Assembly: GCA_003165005.1 (NCBI GenBank)
Contig: PLSB01000059.1
Coordinates: 616 to 34,851, forward strand
From: Acidobacteriaceae bacterium
GTDB lineage: Bacteria > Acidobacteriota > Terriglobia > Terriglobales > Acidobacteriaceae
Length of the DNA: 34,236 nt
Direction: 5' to 3'
Of the stretch, positions 5,103 through 26,160 are shown in pieces; positions within the stretch are counted from its first letter, which is position 1, and every line of letters starts with the position of its first letter. The translations under genes and the position numbers were made by a program. The notes under the pieces are model-generated. The model saw nothing but the letters and a program-made list of their open reading frames with translations, did no database searches and was not told the DNA's origin.

Positions 5103-5111
5103 AGGGGACAG

Positions 5112-5210
5112 CGAGTCAGCGGGTTAGCGAGTTGGCAAGTTGGCGAGTTGGCCAGTTTGCGAATCAAACCTGCTTTATTGCTAACACCGCTAGCTCCGCT
5201 AACGACGCTG
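5112..5210. repeat. Short tandem word array with partly inverted partner (8- and 9-bp units)
   Basis: Positions 5121-5160 hold five octamers of the form NAGTTGGC (GGGTTAGC, GAGTTGGC, AAGTTGGC, GAGTTGGC, CAGTTTGC). Positions 5180-5206 hold three nonamers starting GCTA (GCTAACACC, GCTAGCTCC, GCTAACGAC). GTTAGC on the left and GCTAAC on the right are inverted relative to each other. The arrays fill the gap between two convergent genes. Confidence 0.7.
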
Positions 5211-6341: not shown

Positions 6342-7847
6342 ATGAGGACAGAAGCGGCGATGGCTCGTGCGCAGCTTGCCCAGAGGCTAAAGCCCGCACT
6401 TCTTTTTGCGGCCGTCGCGGCACCCTTCGACTTCGCTCAGGGCAGGCTGAAGCCGTGCCCTTTCGCGTTTCGCGCTTCGGCGGGAAATCTTCGGCAAACT
6501 CGGCAAGGGACCGCGGTTCCCGCCTTGGCAGCCTTGGCCGTGGCCGGGGCTCTCGGCCTTTTTGCGCCATTTCTCGCGGCGCAAGATGCAGCCGGGCCGG
6601 CTGCTCCGGTGACGCCGCGGCATCTGATCAATCGTTTTCCCGATCAACCTTCCCTTCCGCCCGCATTCAGCATTCCCCTCGGACCGCTGGGCTTTGCTGC
6701 GCCCGGCGCCATCTATCTGGGCGCGCGCAACTCCCTGGTCTCTCTCGATTTCCTCGACGAGGACCGGCTGCTGTTCACCTTTCGCGTGCCGGGGCTCATC
6801 CACCGCGACCCCAAGAGCGGCGAGGAAGGCGACGAGCGCCAGATTCGCGCCGTGGTGCTCAAGCTGCCGCAGGGCACGGTTGAGGCTGAGGCATTGTGGA
6901 CGGTGCACGACCGCGTGCGCTACCTGTGGCCGCTCAAGAACGGCCATTTTCTCGTGCGCGACCGCAGCCATCTATTCGAAGGCGACGCCACGCTCCGCTT
7001 GAAGCCGTACCTCGACTTTCCCGGCCCGCTGCTCTGGCTCGATCTCGATCCAGCGCAGCAGTATATCGTGACAAACTCGGAAGAGCCGCATGCGCCCGAG
7101 GCCTCTGCGGACGGGTTTTCATCCGCGGGGCGGAGATCCGGGCAGGTCTCCAGCGCCTCGACGGCCATGCCTACAGGGACCACGGATGCCGACTCGGAAA
7201 CGGCGCAGGATGATCTTCCCGACAAGGTAGTGCGCATCCTGCGGCGCGACTCGGGCCAGGTGATGCTGGTGAGCCGGGCGCGCACGGCCGTGCATCTGCC
7301 CATCAACTCGACGGGGTATCTTGAAAACCTGCGCGGCCGCAGCGTGGAGTGGATGCTGAACTTCCACTACTTCACGGGCGGCAGCAAGATCCTGGGCAGC
7401 GCGGCATCGGGGTGCGAACCCGATGACAGCTTTCTTTCAGAGAACGAGATTCTGATGGAGGGGTGCAACGATGACGGCGCGAGCAGGCTGGTGGCGATGA
7501 CTACCGACGGCCGAACGCTTTGGATCACGCAGGCGCCGGGCACTGAGGTGTGGCCGCAACTGACCGTGGCGCCCAACGGCTCGCGCCTGGCTTGGACGAC
7601 GCTCGATACCATCCGCTCGGTGAACAGCTTTGCGCCCATGGACAATCAAACCGTGAAGGAGCAGTCGGTGACGGTCTTCGATGCGGCCACCGGCGACATC
7701 GCGCTGGTCTCGCCGCTCAGCCCCATTCTCGATGCCGGCGGCAACGTAGCCATCTCTCCATCGGGCCGTCGCGTGGCCCTGCTCAATGCCGGCGCCATTG
7801 AGATTTTTGATTTGCCTCCGGTGCCGGCGGTGCCTGGGAAACATTGA
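6342..7847 (+). CDS. Secreted protein of unknown function, probably beta-propeller-like
   Basis: About 501 residues from the ATG at 6342 (GGAGG 4 nt upstream); an ATG at 6360 is also possible. Unusually, the hydrophobic export signal (AALAVAGALGLFAPFLAA) lies near residues 62-82, behind a stretch encoded by the family B repeat (6381-6466), so translation may really start later at a GTG or TTG near 6526-6540. The mature part has repeated WD40/propeller-like strands (NSLVSLDFLDEDRLLFTF, GSKILGSA, LWITQAPGTEVWPQLTVAPNGSRLAWTT, VAISPSGRRVALLNAGAIEIF), suggesting a six- or seven-bladed propeller. I do not recognise a named family. The stop codon overlaps the first unit of the heptamer array at 7846. 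Confidence 0.72.
   Translation: MRTEAAMARAQLAQRLKPALLFAAVAAPFDFAQGRLKPCPFAFRASAGNLRQTRQGTAVPALAALAVAGALGLFAPFLAAQDAAGPAAPVTPRHLINRFPDQPSLPPAFSIPLGPLGFAAPGAIYLGARNSLVSLDFLDEDRLLFTFRVPGLIHRDPKSGEEGDERQIRAVVLKLPQGTVEAEALWTVHDRVRYLWPLKNGHFLVRDRSHLFEGDATLRLKPYLDFPGPLLWLDLDPAQQYIVTNSEEPHAPEASADGFSSAGRRSGQVSSASTAMPTGTTDADSETAQDDLPDKVVRILRRDSGQVMLVSRARTAVHLPINSTGYLENLRGRSVEWMLNFHYFTGGSKILGSAASGCEPDDSFLSENEILMEGCNDDGASRLVAMTTDGRTLWITQAPGTEVWPQLTVAPNGSRLAWTTLDTIRSVNSFAPMDNQTVKEQSVTVFDAATGDIALVSPLSPILDAGGNVAISPSGRRVALLNAGAIEIFDLPPVPAVPGKH
6381..6466 (+). repeat. Family B repeat element, copy 1 (inside a reading frame)
   Basis: About 86 bp running from GAGGCTAAAGCCC to GCCGTGCCCTTTC. It shares a near-identical core of about 45 bp with 9286-9372, from GCGGCACCCTTCGACTTCGC through the GTGCCCTTTC end, and its head GGCTAAAGCCC with 24311-24323. 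Here it is read in frame as part of the N-terminus of the secreted protein. Confidence 0.85.
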
Positions 7848-7970
7848 TCAGTGATCAGTTGTCAGTTGTCAGTGGCCGGCGAGCAGCGAGCGGCGAACGG
7901 ATAAAGCCATCGGTTAATAACTAAAGTCTAAAGGCTGACCACTGACCACTGATCACTGACCACTGTTTTT
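7846..7970. repeat. Inverted pair of heptanucleotide arrays with trailing T-run
   Basis: Left array 7846-7873 is four heptamers (GATCAGT twice, TGTCAGT twice), the first overlapping the stop codon of the preceding gene. Right array 7935-7965 is the same word inverted (ACTGACC, ACTGATC, ACTGACC, ACTG), followed by TTTTT. The arrays can pair over about 28 bp and, with the T-run, could act as a terminator for the upstream gene. Confidence 0.75.
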
Positions 7971-7990: not shown

Positions 7991-8734
7991 GTGTTCTTGT
8001 CCACGGCAGTTGCGCACTATACGGCCGCGGCGGCCAGCGATTGTGGCCGCAAGCGCCCATCCAACGAGGATGCATTCGGTTTTTCCGTCGAGCACGGAGT
8101 GTACGTGGTCTGCGACGGTATGGGCGGGGCGGCCGCGGGCGAGGTTGCAAGCTCACTCGCCGTCGACGAGATGATGCGCCTGCTCACCAGCCGCGATGCG
8201 GACCGTGCGCTGGTGGACGACGCCGAAGCGGCTGTCGCCAGCGCCAATGCGTCCATCTTCATGCGCGCGCGGAATAGCCGCAACCTGAGCGGCATGGGCA
8301 CCACGCTGGTTTCGCTGCTGGCCGAGGAGCGCCGCGGCTGGATGATCAACGTGGGCGACAGCCGTGGCTACCGCATGTGCAACTCCAGACTGGAGCAGAT
8401 CACGCTCGATCACTCGCTGGTGGAGGAGCAGGTGCGCCTGGGCCGCATGGACCGGCTGGAGGCGCAGCGCTCGCCGTTCAAGAACGTGATCACGCGCGCA
8501 TTGGGCACGCAGAGTTCGGTGACGCCCGACGTTTTCGAGCTCGAAACCGAGCCCGGCGATCTTTTCCTGCTCTGCTCCGACGGCCTGACGCGCGAACTCT
8601 CCGACGCGGTGATTGAATGGCTGCTGAAGCTCGATCTGCCTCTACAGGAAATGTGCGCGCGGCTCGTCGCGGCCGCCAACGATGCCGGTGGCCACGACAA
8701 TATCACCTGCCTGTTGGTGCGGGCGGAGGCGTAG
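7991..8734 (+). CDS. PP2C-family (PPM) serine/threonine protein phosphatase
   Basis: A 247-residue soluble PPM phosphatase of the bacterial PrpC/Stp type, which dephosphorylates substrates of Hanks-type kinases with two metal ions. The motifs are in order: SNEDAFG (24-30), VCDGMGG (40-46), GMGTTLV (101-107), INVGDSRGYR (119-128), LDHSLVEEQ (139-147), LCSDGLT (194-200) and GHDNIT (234-239). The metal-binding aspartates D27, D42, D197 and D236 are all present. Start is GTG at 7991 with a weak GGGG upstream. No kinase gene is adjacent; a VOC protein gene follows after 62 bp. Confidence 0.93.
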   Translation: MFLSTAVAHYTAAAASDCGRKRPSNEDAFGFSVEHGVYVVCDGMGGAAAGEVASSLAVDEMMRLLTSRDADRALVDDAEAAVASANASIFMRARNSRNLSGMGTTLVSLLAEERRGWMINVGDSRGYRMCNSRLEQITLDHSLVEEQVRLGRMDRLEAQRSPFKNVITRALGTQSSVTPDVFELETEPGDLFLLCSDGLTRELSDAVIEWLLKLDLPLQEMCARLVAAANDAGGHDNITCLLVRAEA

Positions 8735-8796
8735 GACGGCGATTGGCTCGAAAGTTTCCTGTTGCACTTCCGGGCCTGCCGGTGCATTCTACCGGC

Positions 8797-9201
8797 ATGA
8801 CGCAACCATTCAGACTCGGCCAGTACGACATCATCGGCTTTGTGACCATCGTCGATGTCGAGCGGGCAAAGGAGTTCTATCGCGACACCCTCGGCTTGCG
8901 GCTGGTCTCCGAAGAGCCGCCCTTCGCGCTGGTCTTCGATGCCAACGGCATCATGCTGCGCCTGGTCATGGCCAAGCAGTTGCCGCCTGCCCATGGGACG
9001 GTTCTCGGCTGGAGCGTTCCCGATATTGCGGCCACCGTCACAGATCTCAATCAGGCGGGCGTGGCCTTTGAGCGCTTCGACGGCATGAAGCAGGACGAGC
9101 TGGGAATCTGGCCCTCGCCTTCGGGGGCAAAGATCGCCTGGTTCAAGGACCCCGATGGGAACATCCTGAGTGTCACGGAGTTTCCGGGCGAAAAGCAGTG
9201 A
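8797..9201 (+). CDS. VOC (glyoxalase/bleomycin-resistance) superfamily protein
   Basis: A 134-residue single VOC domain with the paired beta-alpha-beta-beta-beta modules: residues 12-58 (GFVTIVDVERAKEFYRDTLG, LVFDANGIMLRLV) and 68-129 (TVLGWSVPDIAATVTDLNQAG, AWFKDPDGNILSVTEF). The family covers glyoxalase I, dioxygenases, fosfomycin resistance proteins and others. The first-strand metal-ligand His is replaced by Phe15, while the C-terminal Glu128 remains, so activity as a canonical metal-dependent glyoxalase is doubtful. The ATG at 8797 gives the compact domain. It lies 62 bp after the PP2C gene on the same strand. Confidence 0.88.
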   Translation: MTQPFRLGQYDIIGFVTIVDVERAKEFYRDTLGLRLVSEEPPFALVFDANGIMLRLVMAKQLPPAHGTVLGWSVPDIAATVTDLNQAGVAFERFDGMKQDELGIWPSPSGAKIAWFKDPDGNILSVTEFPGEKQ

Positions 9202-22259: not shown

Positions 22260-24155
22260 TTAGTAGCTCAACTCCAGCACATTCACCGAATACGGCGCAA
22301 AAGTTTGCGTGAAGTTGGGGCCCGGGATGGGGACTTTGGCCGCTGCGGGCTTTACGGCATCGGGATGCGTGATGCTGTTGGTGGCGTTAGGGGTTCTGCC
22401 GCTCATGGTGGTGAGTGTGGCCAACGGCGCGAGTTTTTGGACGCCGGTGAGCGCGATCGCGAGCGGTTGTGCGGTCGAGGTTGCGTTGACCACCTTGACG
22501 AAAATCTTGCGCTTCGCGTCGTCGCGTGTGACGGAGGCGTAGACGCGCGCGGGCGCATTCGCGAGCGTGCTGGCGACAACCTCGGTGCCGAGATGCGTTG
22601 AGAACATCACCTGCGTCCAGTAGCTGGGCGAGCCGTAGCTCGTGAGCGCGTCGTAGCCGATGAGGTCGGGGGCCCATTGCATGCCGCCGGGATTGACGTT
22701 GACGAAGAGCGGCGCGTAGCTGGTCATGATGATGAGATCGCTGTTGCGTTCGAGGCCCGTGAGCCAGGCCGCGTCGGCGAGCGCGGCTTCGAGGTCCGGC
22801 GTGGGATTGCCCTCGCGCGTGGCCCATTCGCCGACAAAGATCTTCGGGCCCTTGCGGTCGGCGGCATCGTAGTGGTGCGCCTGCGCGAAGGTCTCCTCGG
22901 CTGGCATGTAGAAGTGCTCGTCGAGGACGTCGGGCGTGACGCCTTTCACGGGCGTGGTGGCGATGATCTGGAGAGTAGGATAGTGCTGTTTGAAGGCGTG
23001 GTAGAACTGCGCGAAGCGGCCGTCGTACGAGTGCGAGCGGTCAAATTGGTCCTCGTTTCCCACTTCGACATAATGCAGCGGGAACGGCGCAGGGTGGCCG
23101 TCTTTGATGCGCTCTGCGCCCCATTTGGTGTCCGCGCCGCCGGTTACGTACTCGATCTCGTCGAGCGCATCCTGGACGTAGGGTTCGAGCGCCGGGCCGG
23201 GATCGATGTGCTCCTGCTGAAGGGAGTAGCCGGCATAGACGGCGAGCACGGGCTCCATCTTCAAGTCCTCACACCACTCCAGGAATTCGAGCAGGCCCAT
23301 GCCGTCGGACGAGCGGTAGCTCCATGGGCTCGGGTGCGTGGGGCGGTCGGTCCGCGGGCCGATGGTTTTCTTCCAATCGAAACGGTCGGCGATGTGATCG
23401 CCCTCTAGATAGTTGCCGCCGGGCAGGCGCAGGAATTTGGGCTGCATGGCGGCCAGCTTTTCCATAATGTCCACGCGGTTGCCGCTGGGCCGCGCATGAT
23501 AGGTGGGCGGAAAGAGCGAGACCAGGTCGAACCAGACCGTGGCCGGGCGAGCGATGGTGAGGAGGAGATGGTTGTTCGAGGAAGGGGGAACGCCGGCGGT
23601 TTTGAGCGTCCAGGTGAACTGCTTCCATTCGCCGGTGAGGCCGGTGACCGTGGTTGTGGCCGCAACCGCGCCGGTCTGATCGTTCTCAAGGCTCACGGTG
23701 ACGGCAAGGCCCGGTGCGTCGGTCTTGGCGTAAAACGATCCCGTGTAGACGGTTTGCGGGCGCACGGGAATGCCCCAGTAGCCGCCGTTCTCCACCCCCG
23801 CGGGCGAGCCCGGAGCGGCCGCGGAGACGCTGACGCGAAGGCTGCGCGTGAGCGCGGCGCTGGGACCGGTGGCCGAGTCGATTGAGACATTGACCGCGGA
23901 GTTGCCGCGCGCCACCATTGGCCAGGAAACCAGCGCGTCCCAGGCGGTGCTCGGCGTGCGGTCGCGCACCAGTTCGCCATAGATGCCGCCGTCGTAGGAG
24001 TAGTTGATCTCCTCGGTCATGAGGCCGTAGAGCGTGGGGCTGACCTTGGCGATGGGCTGGTCGGCCTGGATGGTGAACGACGGCGTCTGCGCGTAGAGGG
24101 GCAGGGACAAGGCGAGGGCGGCAAGGAATGCGGCGACGAGGGATGGTTTGTTCAT
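22260..24155 (-). CDS. Secreted GH51-family alpha-L-arabinofuranosidase with carbohydrate-binding module
   Basis: A 631-residue exported glycosidase that removes arabinofuranosyl side chains from plant polysaccharides such as arabinoxylan or arabinan. Residues 1-22 are a signal peptide (LVAAFLAALALSLPLYA). A CBM4/9-like beta-sandwich spans about 75-215. The GH51 barrel follows: FLRLPGGNYLEGD (241-253), MEPVLAVYAGYS (300-311), acid/base Glu368 in VEVGNEDQF and nucleophile Glu443 in FVGEWATREG. A C-terminal beta-sandwich ends in APYSVNVLELSY. The start at 24155 begins exactly at the signal peptide; an upstream frame to 24194 lacks one. The stop sits 28 bp from the family E element. Confidence 0.92.
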   Translation of the reverse strand: MNKPSLVAAFLAALALSLPLYAQTPSFTIQADQPIAKVSPTLYGLMTEEINYSYDGGIYGELVRDRTPSTAWDALVSWPMVARGNSAVNVSIDSATGPSAALTRSLRVSVSAAAPGSPAGVENGGYWGIPVRPQTVYTGSFYAKTDAPGLAVTVSLENDQTGAVAATTTVTGLTGEWKQFTWTLKTAGVPPSSNNHLLLTIARPATVWFDLVSLFPPTYHARPSGNRVDIMEKLAAMQPKFLRLPGGNYLEGDHIADRFDWKKTIGPRTDRPTHPSPWSYRSSDGMGLLEFLEWCEDLKMEPVLAVYAGYSLQQEHIDPGPALEPYVQDALDEIEYVTGGADTKWGAERIKDGHPAPFPLHYVEVGNEDQFDRSHSYDGRFAQFYHAFKQHYPTLQIIATTPVKGVTPDVLDEHFYMPAEETFAQAHHYDAADRKGPKIFVGEWATREGNPTPDLEAALADAAWLTGLERNSDLIIMTSYAPLFVNVNPGGMQWAPDLIGYDALTSYGSPSYWTQVMFSTHLGTEVVASTLANAPARVYASVTRDDAKRKIFVKVVNATSTAQPLAIALTGVQKLAPLATLTTMSGRTPNATNSITHPDAVKPAAAKVPIPGPNFTQTFAPYSVNVLELSY

Positions 24156-24213
24156 GACCCCGCAATCGTACTGCGGAGGCGGAGGGGTTGACAATCTGGA
24201 AAGGGTTTACCGG

Positions 24214-24262
24214 AGCCAGTAGCCAGTAGCTTGTAGCCAGTAGCCAGTAGCCAGTAGCGAGG
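24214..24262. repeat. Heptanucleotide tandem array, left arm (AGCCAGT x 7)
   Basis: Seven consecutive heptamers: AGCCAGT, AGCCAGT, AGCTTGT, AGCCAGT, AGCCAGT, AGCCAGT, AGCGAGG. The array lies 58 bp upstream of the GH51 start, in the 336-bp gap to the sugar kinase. An inverted array of the same word is at 24437-24492. Confidence 0.9.
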
Positions 24263-24310
24263 AGGCGGCTGGAAAGATCACGAACGGCGAGCGGAATTTG
24301 CAAGCGAAGA

Positions 24311-24372
24311 TCCTGCAGGGGCTAAAGCCCGCGCGTTTTTTGGGCACTTTCGGCACGAGTAAACTCGTGCCC
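24311..24372. repeat. Family B-head element with perfect hairpin
   Basis: Begins with CAGGGGCTAAAGCCCG like the family B elements, but then carries a perfect 9-bp hairpin GGCACGAGT (24352-24360), AA, ACTCGTGCC (24363-24371) in place of the family B core. It lies between the two inverted heptamer arrays. Confidence 0.8.
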
Positions 24373-24436
24373 TGTTACAAGACCTTTCCTGGGGGTGCTC
24401 TTCAGCAAGCTGCTGGATTTCGAGGTCAGAAGGTTT

Positions 24437-24492
24437 GAGCTACGAGCTACCGGCTACTGGCTACAGGCTACCGGCTACAAGCTGCCGGCTCT
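24437..24492. repeat. Heptanucleotide tandem array, right arm (NGGCTAC x 8)
   Basis: Eight consecutive heptamers: GAGCTAC, GAGCTAC, CGGCTAC, TGGCTAC, AGGCTAC, CGGCTAC, AAGCTGC, CGGCTCT. The word is the reverse complement of the GTAGCC word in the left array. The array abuts the stop codon of the sugar kinase gene. Confidence 0.9.
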
Positions 24493-25496
24493 TAGCTTGT
24501 CGTCTTCTCGATGGCTGCCGTGATGGCAACGCGGACGGCATTGGGCAGGGCCGGCATGGCGCCGGAGTGCGAGGCCATCCAGGCGCCCCAGCGATTTCCG
24601 GCTTCGTTGAGTGTGGCCAGGCCGGCGCCGCGCAGCATGGAGTGAGCGATGGCCGCCGTGAAGGCGTCTCCGGCGCCGATGGGGTCGGCAACTTTGACGG
24701 GAAATCCGGGATGCTCGTCCCATGCCTCGCGCGTGACGAGCAAACTGCCCCGGCTGCCACGCGTGATGGCTACCGTTTGCAAGGAAGGAAACGCGGCAAG
24801 CAGGCGCTCGGCTGCCGTGAGCAGAGACTCGCTCGTCGATAGGGTCTGGCCTGTGAGGGGCGCGTTCTCAATGCTCGGGTCAATACTCGGGTCGGTGCTC
24901 AGGCCGGGACTCAGGTCGAGGAGGTCCAGCACCAGCGGCGTCTCGGCGTCGTTCATCTTGACCACGGTGGCAAGCCCCAGCGATTCCTCGAGAATCTCGG
25001 CCGAGTAGAAGGGTTTCCGAAGATTCACATCGAAGATGCGAATGCAGGCGTCAGAGGCCTCGGCGACGATGGTTTGAATGGTCTGCCGCGCCTGCGGGTG
25101 GCGCTGCGCCAGTGACCCGAAACAGAGGACGCTGGCGCGTTCGGCGAGCGCGACCCACTCATCGGGAAGCTCCAGGAAATCCCATGCTGCCGGTTCGTGA
25201 ATGGTGTAGTGCGGCTCGCCTGCTTCGAGACTGACGGCGACGCGGCCGGTTTCGTGGAGCGGATCGACCTGAAGGAAGCTGGTATCGACAGGCATCGGGT
25301 CCAGAATCGGGCGCAGGCGGTCGATGGCTTGGCGGCCCAGGTCGTCGCGGCCGATGCGGCTCAGGATTGCGGCATGATTGCCGAGACGGCCCGCCATCAC
25401 GGCGAAGTTGGCGGGCGCGCCACCCAGCCTCATGCCGTCGGGCAGAATGTCCCAGAGCAGTTCGCCGATTCCCAGGATCAGATGCGGTTCGTTCAT
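24492..25496 (-). CDS. PfkB-family sugar kinase (fructokinase-like)
   Basis: A 334-residue cytoplasmic ribokinase-fold kinase. Family marks: LGIGELLWDILPDG (8-21), GGAPANFAVMAGRLG (25-39), FDVNLRKPFYS (155-165) and the second PfkB signature DPIGAGDAFTAAI (271-283), with catalytic base Asp277 and the anion hole GAGD. Fructose is the commonest substrate for sequences like this, but others are possible. Residues about 194-210 are a low-complexity insertion encoded by four 12-bp repeats. GGAG lies 8 nt before the ATG. It is transcribed toward the GH51 gene, 336 bp of repeats away, so a shared operon is uncertain; the kinase may process a released sugar. Confidence 0.9.
   Translation of the reverse strand: MNEPHLILGIGELLWDILPDGMRLGGAPANFAVMAGRLGNHAAILSRIGRDDLGRQAIDRLRPILDPMPVDTSFLQVDPLHETGRVAVSLEAGEPHYTIHEPAAWDFLELPDEWVALAERASVLCFGSLAQRHPQARQTIQTIVAEASDACIRIFDVNLRKPFYSAEILEESLGLATVVKMNDAETPLVLDLLDLSPGLSTDPSIDPSIENAPLTGQTLSTSESLLTAAERLLAAFPSLQTVAITRGSRGSLLVTREAWDEHPGFPVKVADPIGAGDAFTAAIAHSMLRGAGLATLNEAGNRWGAWMASHSGAMPALPNAVRVAITAAIEKTTS
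24874..24921. repeat. 12-bp tandem repeat inside the sugar kinase gene
   Basis: Four imperfect 12-bp units: CTCGGGTCAATA, CTCGGGTCGGTG, CTCAGGCCGGGA, CTCAGGTCGAGG. On the minus strand they encode four-residue steps (SPGL, STDP, SIDP, SIE) in a loop of the PfkB protein, in frame. Such an array can change length by replication slippage without breaking the gene. Confidence 0.75.
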
Positions 25497-25512: not shown

Positions 25513-25540
25513 GGGAGTAGGGAGTAGCCAATAGGGAATA
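25513..25540. repeat. Short heptamer array (GGGAGTA x 4)
   Basis: Four heptamers: GGGAGTA, GGGAGTA, GCCAATA, GGGAATA, starting 17 bp upstream of the kinase start codon. No inverted partner is seen nearby. The rest of the 185-bp gap to the next gene shows no clear feature. Confidence 0.7.
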
Positions 25541-25681
25541 GAAAACAGTGGTTCGTGGAGAATTGTCAGCTATTCGCGTGCGATCGAGCAACATTCGACT
25601 TGCTGCCGTTGCCGGCAGCTTCCCCTGTTGATTAGCATCGAAGGGAAAGGCGTGGCCTGTGCCGCGCCGCGAGGAAGCGCC

Positions 25682-26050: not shown

Positions 26051-26110
26051 CCCGCATTTCTCGCGGATGTCTCGGCGGCAGGGGAAATGGCGCAATTTTG
26101 ACCGTAGCCT

Positions 26111-26160
26111 GCGGGGGTCAGGAGACCCCCGCTACAGCCGGTCAGGAGACCGGCGCTACA
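26111..26160. repeat. Family E tandem hairpin element, copy 3
   Basis: Two hairpins: GCGGGGGTC-AGGA-GACCCCCGC (26111-26132) and GCCGGTC-AGGA-GACCGGC (26137-26154), each followed by TACA. The second unit is identical to those at 15428 and 22209; the first has a new stem with the same AGGA loop. Confidence 0.9.

Follow-up and report, generated by a model that had tools for sequence, protein, structure and literature searches.

Convergent arrays of short tandem units bracket intergenic spacers in an Acidobacteriaceae genome and may form the arms of expandable gene-end hairpins

Two arrays of heptamers lie in inverted orientation between a kinase gene and an arabinofuranosidase-like gene of an Acidobacteriaceae bacterium from soil, which raises the question of whether they are separate repeats or parts of a single structure, and of how such a structure would have arisen. 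The window, i.e. the whole stretch of 34,236 nucleotides that was analysed (contig PLSB01000059.1, positions 616 to 34,851), belongs to a genome assembly (GCA_003165005.1) of 3.9 Mb in 327 contigs that is 75% complete. The best named relatives of the kinase are found in the Acidobacteriaceae, the first being Terracidiphilus sp. MAG_BA147 (78%), and the nearest match to the spacer together with the kinase among 40 genus genomes showed 75% DNA identity. Rfam covariance models gave no matches in the window at gathering thresholds.

Direct reading and TRF both recovered the seven and eight inverted heptamers that had been reported in the initial annotation. The left array consists of the units AGCCAGT AGCCAGT AGCTTGT AGCCAGT AGCCAGT AGCCAGT AGCGAGG, the final one having diverged, and the right array of GAGCTAC GAGCTAC CGGCTAC TGGCTAC AGGCTAC CGGCTAC AAGCTGC CGGCTCT. 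The two represent one and the same word in inverted orientation. The right array indeed abuts the stop codon of the kinase gene, and both the 9-bp hairpin and the family B element between the arrays are real, family B being present at 47 places across the genome. It had gone unnoticed that such arrays start at stop codons and enclose spacers in convergent pairs. Folded as plus-strand RNA, the spacer is predicted to reach a raw energy of -156 kcal/mol. In this predicted fold, the arrays at 24214 and 24437 pair as the two arms of a single long hairpin, which fills the gap between the two genes. In the orthologous spacer of locus L025, both outer edges are conserved, the core is different, and the arrays comprise about 4-5 and 2-3 units versus 8 and 7 here. 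This difference in unit number fits local expansion.

Table 1. Coordinates of the repeats in the window and of the genes that flank the spacer under study.
Feature	Position	Strand	Remarks
Left arm, 7 AGCCAGT-type heptamers	24214-24262	+	AG strand into spacer; 58 bp to start of arabinofuranosidase-like gene
Right arm, 8 heptamers, NGGCTAC (reverse complement of NGTAGCC)	24437-24492	-	AG-sense for kinase; begins at kinase stop codon
Core between the arms, family B copy (GGGGCTAAAGCCC ... perfect 9-bp hairpin)	24311-24383	+	
Perfect 9-bp hairpin GGCACGAGT-AA-ACTCGTGCC within core	24352-24371		
Entire spacer, predicted single long hairpin with the arrays as stem	24156-24491	.	
PfkB-family carbohydrate kinase	24492-25496	-	Upstream neighbour of spacer; stop at 24492
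Alpha-L-arabinofuranosidase-like gene	22260-24155	-	Downstream neighbour of spacer; start at 24155
Second element, left arm, (AGTGATC/AGTTGTC)n	7842-7900	+	Starts on stop codon of gene ending 7847
Second element, right arm, (CTGACCA)n, inverted partner of 7842-7900	7921-7965	-	Followed by TTTTT
Lone short array GGGAGTA/GGGAATA	25513-25541	+	AG antisense; ~16 bp upstream of kinase start

The arrays that had been noted near 7846 and 25513 were also found to be real, at 7845-7873 and 25513-25541. The former has an inverted partner at 7935-7965. Both arms of this second element belong to the same word class, and its left arm changes in the same period to other words (GGCGAGC). At scores of at least 14, the window contains four segments of period 7, two of period 14 (a harmonic) and none at any other period from 4 to 15, as compared to 0 segments in order-3 Markov shuffles of the window. 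Separately, a second dispersed hairpin family of the CAGCCGGTCTGGAGACCGGCGCTAC type was observed at 26110-26160 in the window, at 7836-7966 in L199 and after position 6050 in L025, the likeness of these three places being judged by eye; the L199 copy has 61 further matches in the genome sample.

For a wider census, about 1.1 Mb of the genome was sampled, of which 825 kb were unchosen (contigs C1-C81, at most 20 kb each, with the window) and 273 kb were chosen, the latter comprising 20 stretches picked for array or family B matches. Genes were predicted with a simple codon-model script and not with a standard annotator. Although 78% of the sample is coding, 112 of the 118 period-7 arrays that it contains are intergenic. 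A 615-kb part of the genome yielded 33 or 40 period-7 segments, depending on the scoring, versus 0 in order-4 Markov shuffles. The notion that such arrays exceed chance is therefore upheld with both orders of shuffling. The consensus words included AGTGGTC (24 arrays), AGGGAAC (13), AGCTTCT (9) and AGTGATC (9), a tally that is biased because 52 of the 118 arrays came from the chosen stretches, 14 of these from contig L200. The words are thus diverse, as had been proposed, and the arrays do not all share one word. The words are not private to each locus, however, as is evident from the 24 arrays with AGTGGTC and from the single register and consensus described below.

The arrays were found to be strictly oriented at gene ends. 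Among the AG-sense arrays beside a stop codon, 48 of 57 lie within 10 bp of it, versus 1 of 52 antisense arrays (p ~2e-20 in a Fisher test, which treats arrays as independent). The same was observed for the unchosen contigs only (24 of 31 versus 0 of 32) and when contig L200 was left out (45 of 53 versus 1 of 48); six of the 118 arrays overlap predicted genes and were excluded from these distance counts. The median distance from stop to array is 3 bp. In 30 of the 48 cases the stop codon lies wholly ahead of the array, by 0-8 nt, and in 22 of these 30 the consensus word contains no stop codon in any frame. In the other 18 the stop lies inside the array, and here the repeat itself may supply it. 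Conversely, 25 of 54 AG-antisense arrays beside a start codon lie within 30 bp of it, versus 3 of 55 sense arrays. Judging from these counts for stops and starts, the usual direction of an array is away from the gene boundary, towards the interior of the spacer. Where arrays neighbour each other within a spacer, the convergent orientation predominates, with 22 of 29 cases (3 are ++, 3 are -+ and 1 is --), contig L200 supplying 6 of the 22, and with 10 of 13 cases on the unchosen contigs (the other 3 being ++). Arrays were found in 44 of 305 spacers between tandem genes, in 14 of 83 between convergent genes and in 5 of 98 between divergent genes; for tandem or convergent spacers taken together (58 of 388) versus divergent ones, the p-value is 0.007. 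The arms of these elements consist of tandem units from a single class of short words, mostly 7 bp long and sometimes 8 or 9 bp. They are mostly flush with the gene end, with the AG strand running into the spacer, so that they are convergent and, as a rule, complementary.

When the arrays were aligned over rotation and strand, they converged on one consensus, AG[TGC][GT]N[TA][CT]. The shared-register EM score was 308.7, compared to 167-170 for column-permuted arrays in 8 runs. For an analysis by position, the 18 of the 118 arrays that lacked an AG register or four units were excluded. Among the other 100, variability is 0.014 at position 2 (G) and 0.275 at position 5. Since positions 1 and 2 set the register, only the contrast among positions 3-7 serves as a test, and the excess variability at positions 5 and 6 was matched in 0 of 5000 permutations. 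The unit thus has a near-invariant AG start and a variable fifth (and sixth) base, and this constraint is much alike in 36 paired and 64 unpaired arrays. At least five four-letter cores (AGTG, AGGG, AGCT, AGGT and CGTG) occur in this one genome.

The period, which had been described as always 7, is not strictly so. Arrays with periods of 8 and 9, and a few with a period of 6, also occur between genes and look alike. For period 8, 6 of 7 AG-sense arrays lie within 10 bp of a stop codon versus 1 of 6 antisense arrays; for period 9 the figures are 11 of 16 versus 0 of 11, and for period 6, which is too rare for a judgement, they are 2 of 6 versus 0 of 8. Period 7 is the commonest period but not a special one, since arrays of periods 8 and 9 are anchored alike. 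Several other repeats were seen in this connection. An octamer array of the AGCGAGTT/AGCGAGTC type, belonging to the period-8 class, occupies the window spacer 5109-5162. A 9-bp family, AGCGGNGYT, forms long arrays, with several convergent pairs and stop anchoring too (L014 9946-10165; L163 13352-13507 and 17576-17857; L012 46-221), and a 6-bp intergenic family, AGTGYG, includes one convergent pair (L161 6434-6557, L017 3977-4443). At L166 11389-11497, the block AGTGGTC-AGTGTTC-AGTGATC is repeated in tandem, a higher-order block that suggests multi-unit duplication.

The position-specific constraint, similar with and without a partner array, together with the strict orientation at gene ends, is what would be expected if the arrays were clustered binding sites, where a nucleoid, transcription-end or RNA-binding protein reads a Y-AG-B-K block at 7-bp spacing and the arms merely set such sites at both ends of the spacer. 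A single protein would then need to accept five or more cores as well as arrays of periods 8 and 9 that are placed in the same way, and the words differ between species at the same spacer. We consider this explanation unlikely. Another word-based explanation, namely that the arrays are G-quadruplex elements as proposed for the GGGNATC and GGGGAYT repeats of Xanthomonas and Nostoc, can draw on the occurrence of an AGGG class that is placed in the same way as the rest. However, four G3 tracts with loops of 1-7 are present in only 22 of the 118 arrays, and words such as AGTGGTC, AGCTTCT and CGTGAAT, which cannot provide for G4, are placed alike. As a general cause, G-quadruplex formation is therefore rejected on grounds of word composition, and we regard it as highly improbable for the arrays at large.

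For 22 arm pairs, the summed duplex energy was -738, versus -480 +/- 44 for swapped partners, and none of 5000 swaps reached the observed value, 3 of the 22 pairs being less complementary than the average swapped pair. Some pairs carry different words in their two arms, for example AGTGGTC with AGGGAAC or AGGGACT. When partners of stop-anchored arrays were sought with looser criteria, an inverted match was obtained in 19 of 31 spacers and a match in the direct-repeat control in 11 of 31, which is a weak contrast. In the 14 of 22 pairs that could be tested, the order of variant units in one arm was not mirrored in the other (296 versus 289.6 +/- 5.5). The complementarity thus reflects the shared word class, and in-register correction of one arm by the other is rejected for these 14 pairs.

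If the arrays were the terminal inverted repeats of a mobile miniature element, their convergent ends, the recurrence of the same words at many loci and the presence or absence of elements at the same spacer (as judged from the lengths of the tuf>rpmG spacer given below) would all be accounted for, and some cores on contig L200 do look alike by eye. After exclusion of 3 of the 22 pairs with a gap below 25 bp, however, 16 of the 19 cores were without any other match in the sample. One had two weak matches, and two belong to large, separate REP-like families, namely family B and one other, which lie near an array elsewhere in 2 and 0 cases, respectively. Moreover, in orthologous spacers whose edges are conserved, the number of units has changed in place. 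We therefore disfavour a MITE with a conserved interior, and a mobile element of any such kind seems quite improbable. The look-alike cores on L200 (1549-1594, 1751-1795 and 2042-2087), for which BLAST at E 0.01 revealed no link, could possibly result from local duplication of whole elements.

Family B, GGGGCTAAAGCCC ... GGCACGAGTAAACTCGTGCC, resembles the REP of a RAYT. Its copies adjoin Y1_Tnp genes in 2 of the 4 own-genome places listed among 8 found: on C273, a Y1_Tnp gene (8713-9009) is flanked by copies at 8553-8618 and 9086-9166, and on C83 another (54410-54712) lies beside a copy at 54801-54861. Together with the window copy, the places of interest are thus G000:C273:8553-9272 and G000:C83:54410-54861. 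In the genome sample, family B occurs near an array elsewhere only twice and is therefore probably an element separate from the heptamer arms. Most likely, the core in the window represents a REP-like insertion that landed between the arms. That the arms themselves are driven by a RAYT is rejected, as genomes G044 and G035 have no PF01797 match but 21 and 22 matches to the array pattern.

Other species were inspected for similar arrays. The pattern AGTN4AGTN4AGTN4AGT was found in 75 of 100 family genomes and in 100 of 199 phylum genomes, with counts from 0 to 2659; the backward control of this pattern rises too, probably because many of the words contain TGA, and it thus does not provide a clean null. 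Genomes G184, G164, G176 and G196 have from 500 to more than 2600 matches, some other Acidobacteriota having none. Among the matches listed in the phylum scan, opposite-strand neighbours within 300 bp were convergent in 13 cases and divergent in 1, as counted by eye. No period-7 or period-8 arrays were detected in 200 kb of G017, a genome without matches to the pattern. In 200 kb of G047, neither of the two intergenic arrays among the three of period 7 was anchored at a stop codon, and both of the period-8 arrays were. These data from G047 lend weak support to the view that stop anchoring is general beyond the source genome.

The spacer between rpmG and the tRNA-Trp gene allowed a comparison of one orthologous position across species. 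As read by eye, its words are AGTGRTC, AGCTNTT, AGGGTTT, AGTGGYT or the octamers AATTGGGT and ATTGAATC, depending on the species, and both arms have mostly changed together. The word therefore varies between species at one spacer and the layout stays similar. Of the 30 loci initially collected, five without a tRNA-Trp match were excluded (L223, L232, L238, L239 and L245); a second set of 19 spacers was hand-picked, several of them because their genomes had few or no array matches. A fold with z < -3 was obtained in 22 of 44 genomes (17 of 25 in the first set and 5 of 19 in the second), versus 2 of 44 (2 of 25 and 0 of 19) for a control stretch behind the tRNA and 1 of 25 for the rpmG gene. The distance from the end of the fold to the tRNA-Trp 5' end was 0-11 nt in the first set of 25 spacers. 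Array-bearing spacers that fold no better than shuffles also occur (L222, L241, L244 and L246). The idea of a hairpin before tRNA-Trp in every species was dropped in view of the drop from 17 of 25 to 5 of 19 at z < -3 and of six spacers of only 7-25 nt. Indeed, the hairpin is dispensable, since 6 of the 44 spacers have this minimal length and 22 of the 44 do not reach z < -3. The neighbouring tuf>rpmG spacer measures 10-17 nt in L228, L242 and L244, 33-34 nt in L229 and L233, and at least 83 nt in the other 20 of 25.

The persistence of folding at this orthologous spacer despite changed words would suit RNA hairpins with a function as terminators, processing sites or exonuclease barriers, which are selected for pairing and for which arrays are mere raw material. 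The enrichment behind stops and the scarcity in divergent spacers point in the same direction, as do an A-rich linker (A 0.50 and G 0.35 of 115 bases, versus 0.23 and 0.33 for all genes) and a somewhat T-rich tail. A fold that ends just ahead of tRNA-Trp could, in addition, shield the rpmG mRNA after RNase P cleavage. On the other hand, a run of at least four T is present at only 9 of 44 arm ends (compared to 6% of 15-mers taken at random from spacers), the spacer at this position is nearly absent in six of 44 species, and the source genome shows no excess of G.U pairs. On the sense strand, G.U and A.C mismatches number 99 and 101 in 78 inverted repeats with scores of at least 12, 62 and 62 in 38 repeats with scores of at least 17, and 43 and 47 in the 27 array-bearing elements alone. 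Spacers from the family lean mildly to G.U over A.C (39:27 and 24:17). There is thus no sign of selection on RNA pairing in the source genome, and functional hairpins selected for pairing are, in our opinion, a rather unlikely explanation. Complete intrinsic terminators are specifically disfavoured by contig L200 (C146), which carries the genes for L11, NusG, SecE, tRNA-Trp, L33 and EF-Tu plus four more tRNA genes. Here, convergent pairs occupy six spacers, adjoining tRNA genes as well as ORFs; they lie inside the EF-Tu/L33/tRNA-Trp/SecE/NusG/L11 cluster, where they separate the EF-Tu, L33, tRNA-Trp and SecE genes, and also between tRNA genes, directly ahead of these. With no evident promoter room before the tRNA, these pairs would hardly be complete terminators.

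The explanation that we favour, with a probability of roughly 0.4, is that of an expandable gene-end hairpin element in intergenic spacers, the stems of which grow by slippage of whole units. The founder would have been an ordinary purine-first stem-loop behind a gene, with an A-rich linker and a T-rich tail. Small loops of 6-9 nt largely evade mismatch repair, and replication would lengthen the stem through slippage or duplication of complete units of this size. Because the founding stem is proposed to have been complementary, both arms would inherit the same word and then expand independently. Such insertions would be tolerated solely in intergenic DNA that follows a stop codon and lies away from promoters and ribosome-binding sites, whereby selection would restrict the arrays to gene ends. 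The likeliest benefit is a putative one, in which the long RNA hairpin would form the 3' end of the upstream mRNA or take part in its processing; against such an RNA role stand the equal sense-strand G·U and A·C counts and the six of the 44 species that are almost without a spacer. Local growth is favoured because unit number changes in place, because higher-order blocks occur and because several unit sizes share one architecture. Local generation as opposed to copying, which had been suggested in the initial annotation, agrees with the difference in unit number from the L025 orthologue, but the words recur at many loci. Words that recur at unlinked loci with unrelated cores are not explained by purely local growth. 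Neither does pure slippage predict the same variable positions in all word classes. The constraint on the unit is alike whether or not an array has a partner, which hints at an additional, sequence-specific cause and is the main weakness of the slippage model.

Heptamer repeats have so far been discussed word by word, as G4 (PMC4692102) or as the site of a translational regulator (PMC4679880), to judge from the accessible portions of these reports. A genome with many words and one placement separates the word from the architecture, and suggests that the constant feature is the position behind stop codons together with convergent, mostly complementary arms. What heptamer repeats do can thereby be tested one spacer at a time, for instance at rpmG/tRNA-Trp, with its natural word replacements in many species. 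It should also be noted that promoter, terminator and small-RNA predictions in spacers of Acidobacteriota may often fall on these arms.

Several known systems resemble the arrays described here. REP sequences are conserved palindromes tied to a RAYT. REP/BIME elements with RAYT (Y1_Tnp) genes and the present arrays are all intergenic, hairpin-forming and dispersed, and the family B core resembles a REP; unlike REP, the heptamer arms have no conserved core and also occur in genomes without a PF01797 match (G044 and G035). Cyanobacterial STRR are dispersed tandem heptamers with several words per genome. The present arrays share these properties, and the earlier proposal of the cyanobacterial repeats as a parallel is a fair one, the likeness being drawn from their general description. 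Three heptanucleotides are mentioned for Calothrix in the accessible text of PMC4692102.

The TAACTGA repeats of Beggiatoaceae, cyanobacteria and Bacteroidetes are, according to the accessible part of their description, mostly intergenic heptamers, some sets of which are split by related heptamers, and their indels between two Cyanothece strains occur mostly in 7-nt steps (PMC4679880). Their main location is ahead of start codons, similar words seldom occur as direct repeats, and the same portion of the text mentions only one inverted pair in the main genome (PMC4679880). In forward orientation toward the start they would be AG-antisense, like the start-side arrays here (PMC4679880). The reverse complement, TCAGTTA, reads as AGTTATC, a word found in the relative G047; in the source genome AGTTATC is absent from the consensus words of the 118 arrays and appears as a single unit in one L137 array. 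Whereas TAACTGA is thus described as start-side (PMC4679880), the arrays of our study lie mainly behind stops, are often paired and have free variable positions.

Another likeness is to the GGGNATC and GGGGA(C/T)T repeats of Xanthomonas and Nostoc, which have the same period of 7 and degenerate positions and, in Xanthomonas, an intergenic location and convergent placement at gene ends (PMC4692102). As far as the consulted sections of that report go, the Xanthomonas heptamers are 89-93% intergenic and close to the 5' ORF (28 nt on average), lie on the coding strand downstream and on the non-coding strand upstream of ORFs, and form 70 and 75 convergent pairs in two genomes, with lengths that differ between species (PMC4692102). 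The heptamer gene-end layout is therefore of an already known kind, since the Xanthomonas GGGNATC and the TAACTGA repeats share layout or orientation with it. Convergent inverted pairs near ORF ends are common to Xanthomonas and the present genome; a G3 tract in each unit is not a general feature here, as only 22 of the 118 arrays have four such tracts. The portions at hand describe a single type of G-rich word in each genome, examined with regard to G4 (PMC4692102), while we observed many words, mostly non-G4, along with periods 8 and 9, tighter stop anchoring and word turnover at an orthologous spacer. Among titles and abstract openings retrieved in searches of the open-access literature, such arrays were undescribed for Acidobacteria. 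With due reservation, we suggest that all these repeats could be 'satellite-like' stem arms of bacterial spacers, of which the Xanthomonas G4 heptamers, TAACTGA of Beggiatoaceae and cyanobacterial STRR would be dialects. The proposed shared grammar would consist of AG, two semi-fixed bases and free bases in units of 6-9 bp, with the AG strand running inward from each gene end. Words would sweep and replace one another as position, orientation and complementarity persist, driven by slippage and gene-end selection and not by a word-specific function. As far as can be seen from the accessible open-access literature, two features are new: arrays with many different words, most of them non-G4, and with several periods are tightly anchored at stop codons, and complementary words replace one another at a single orthologous spacer.
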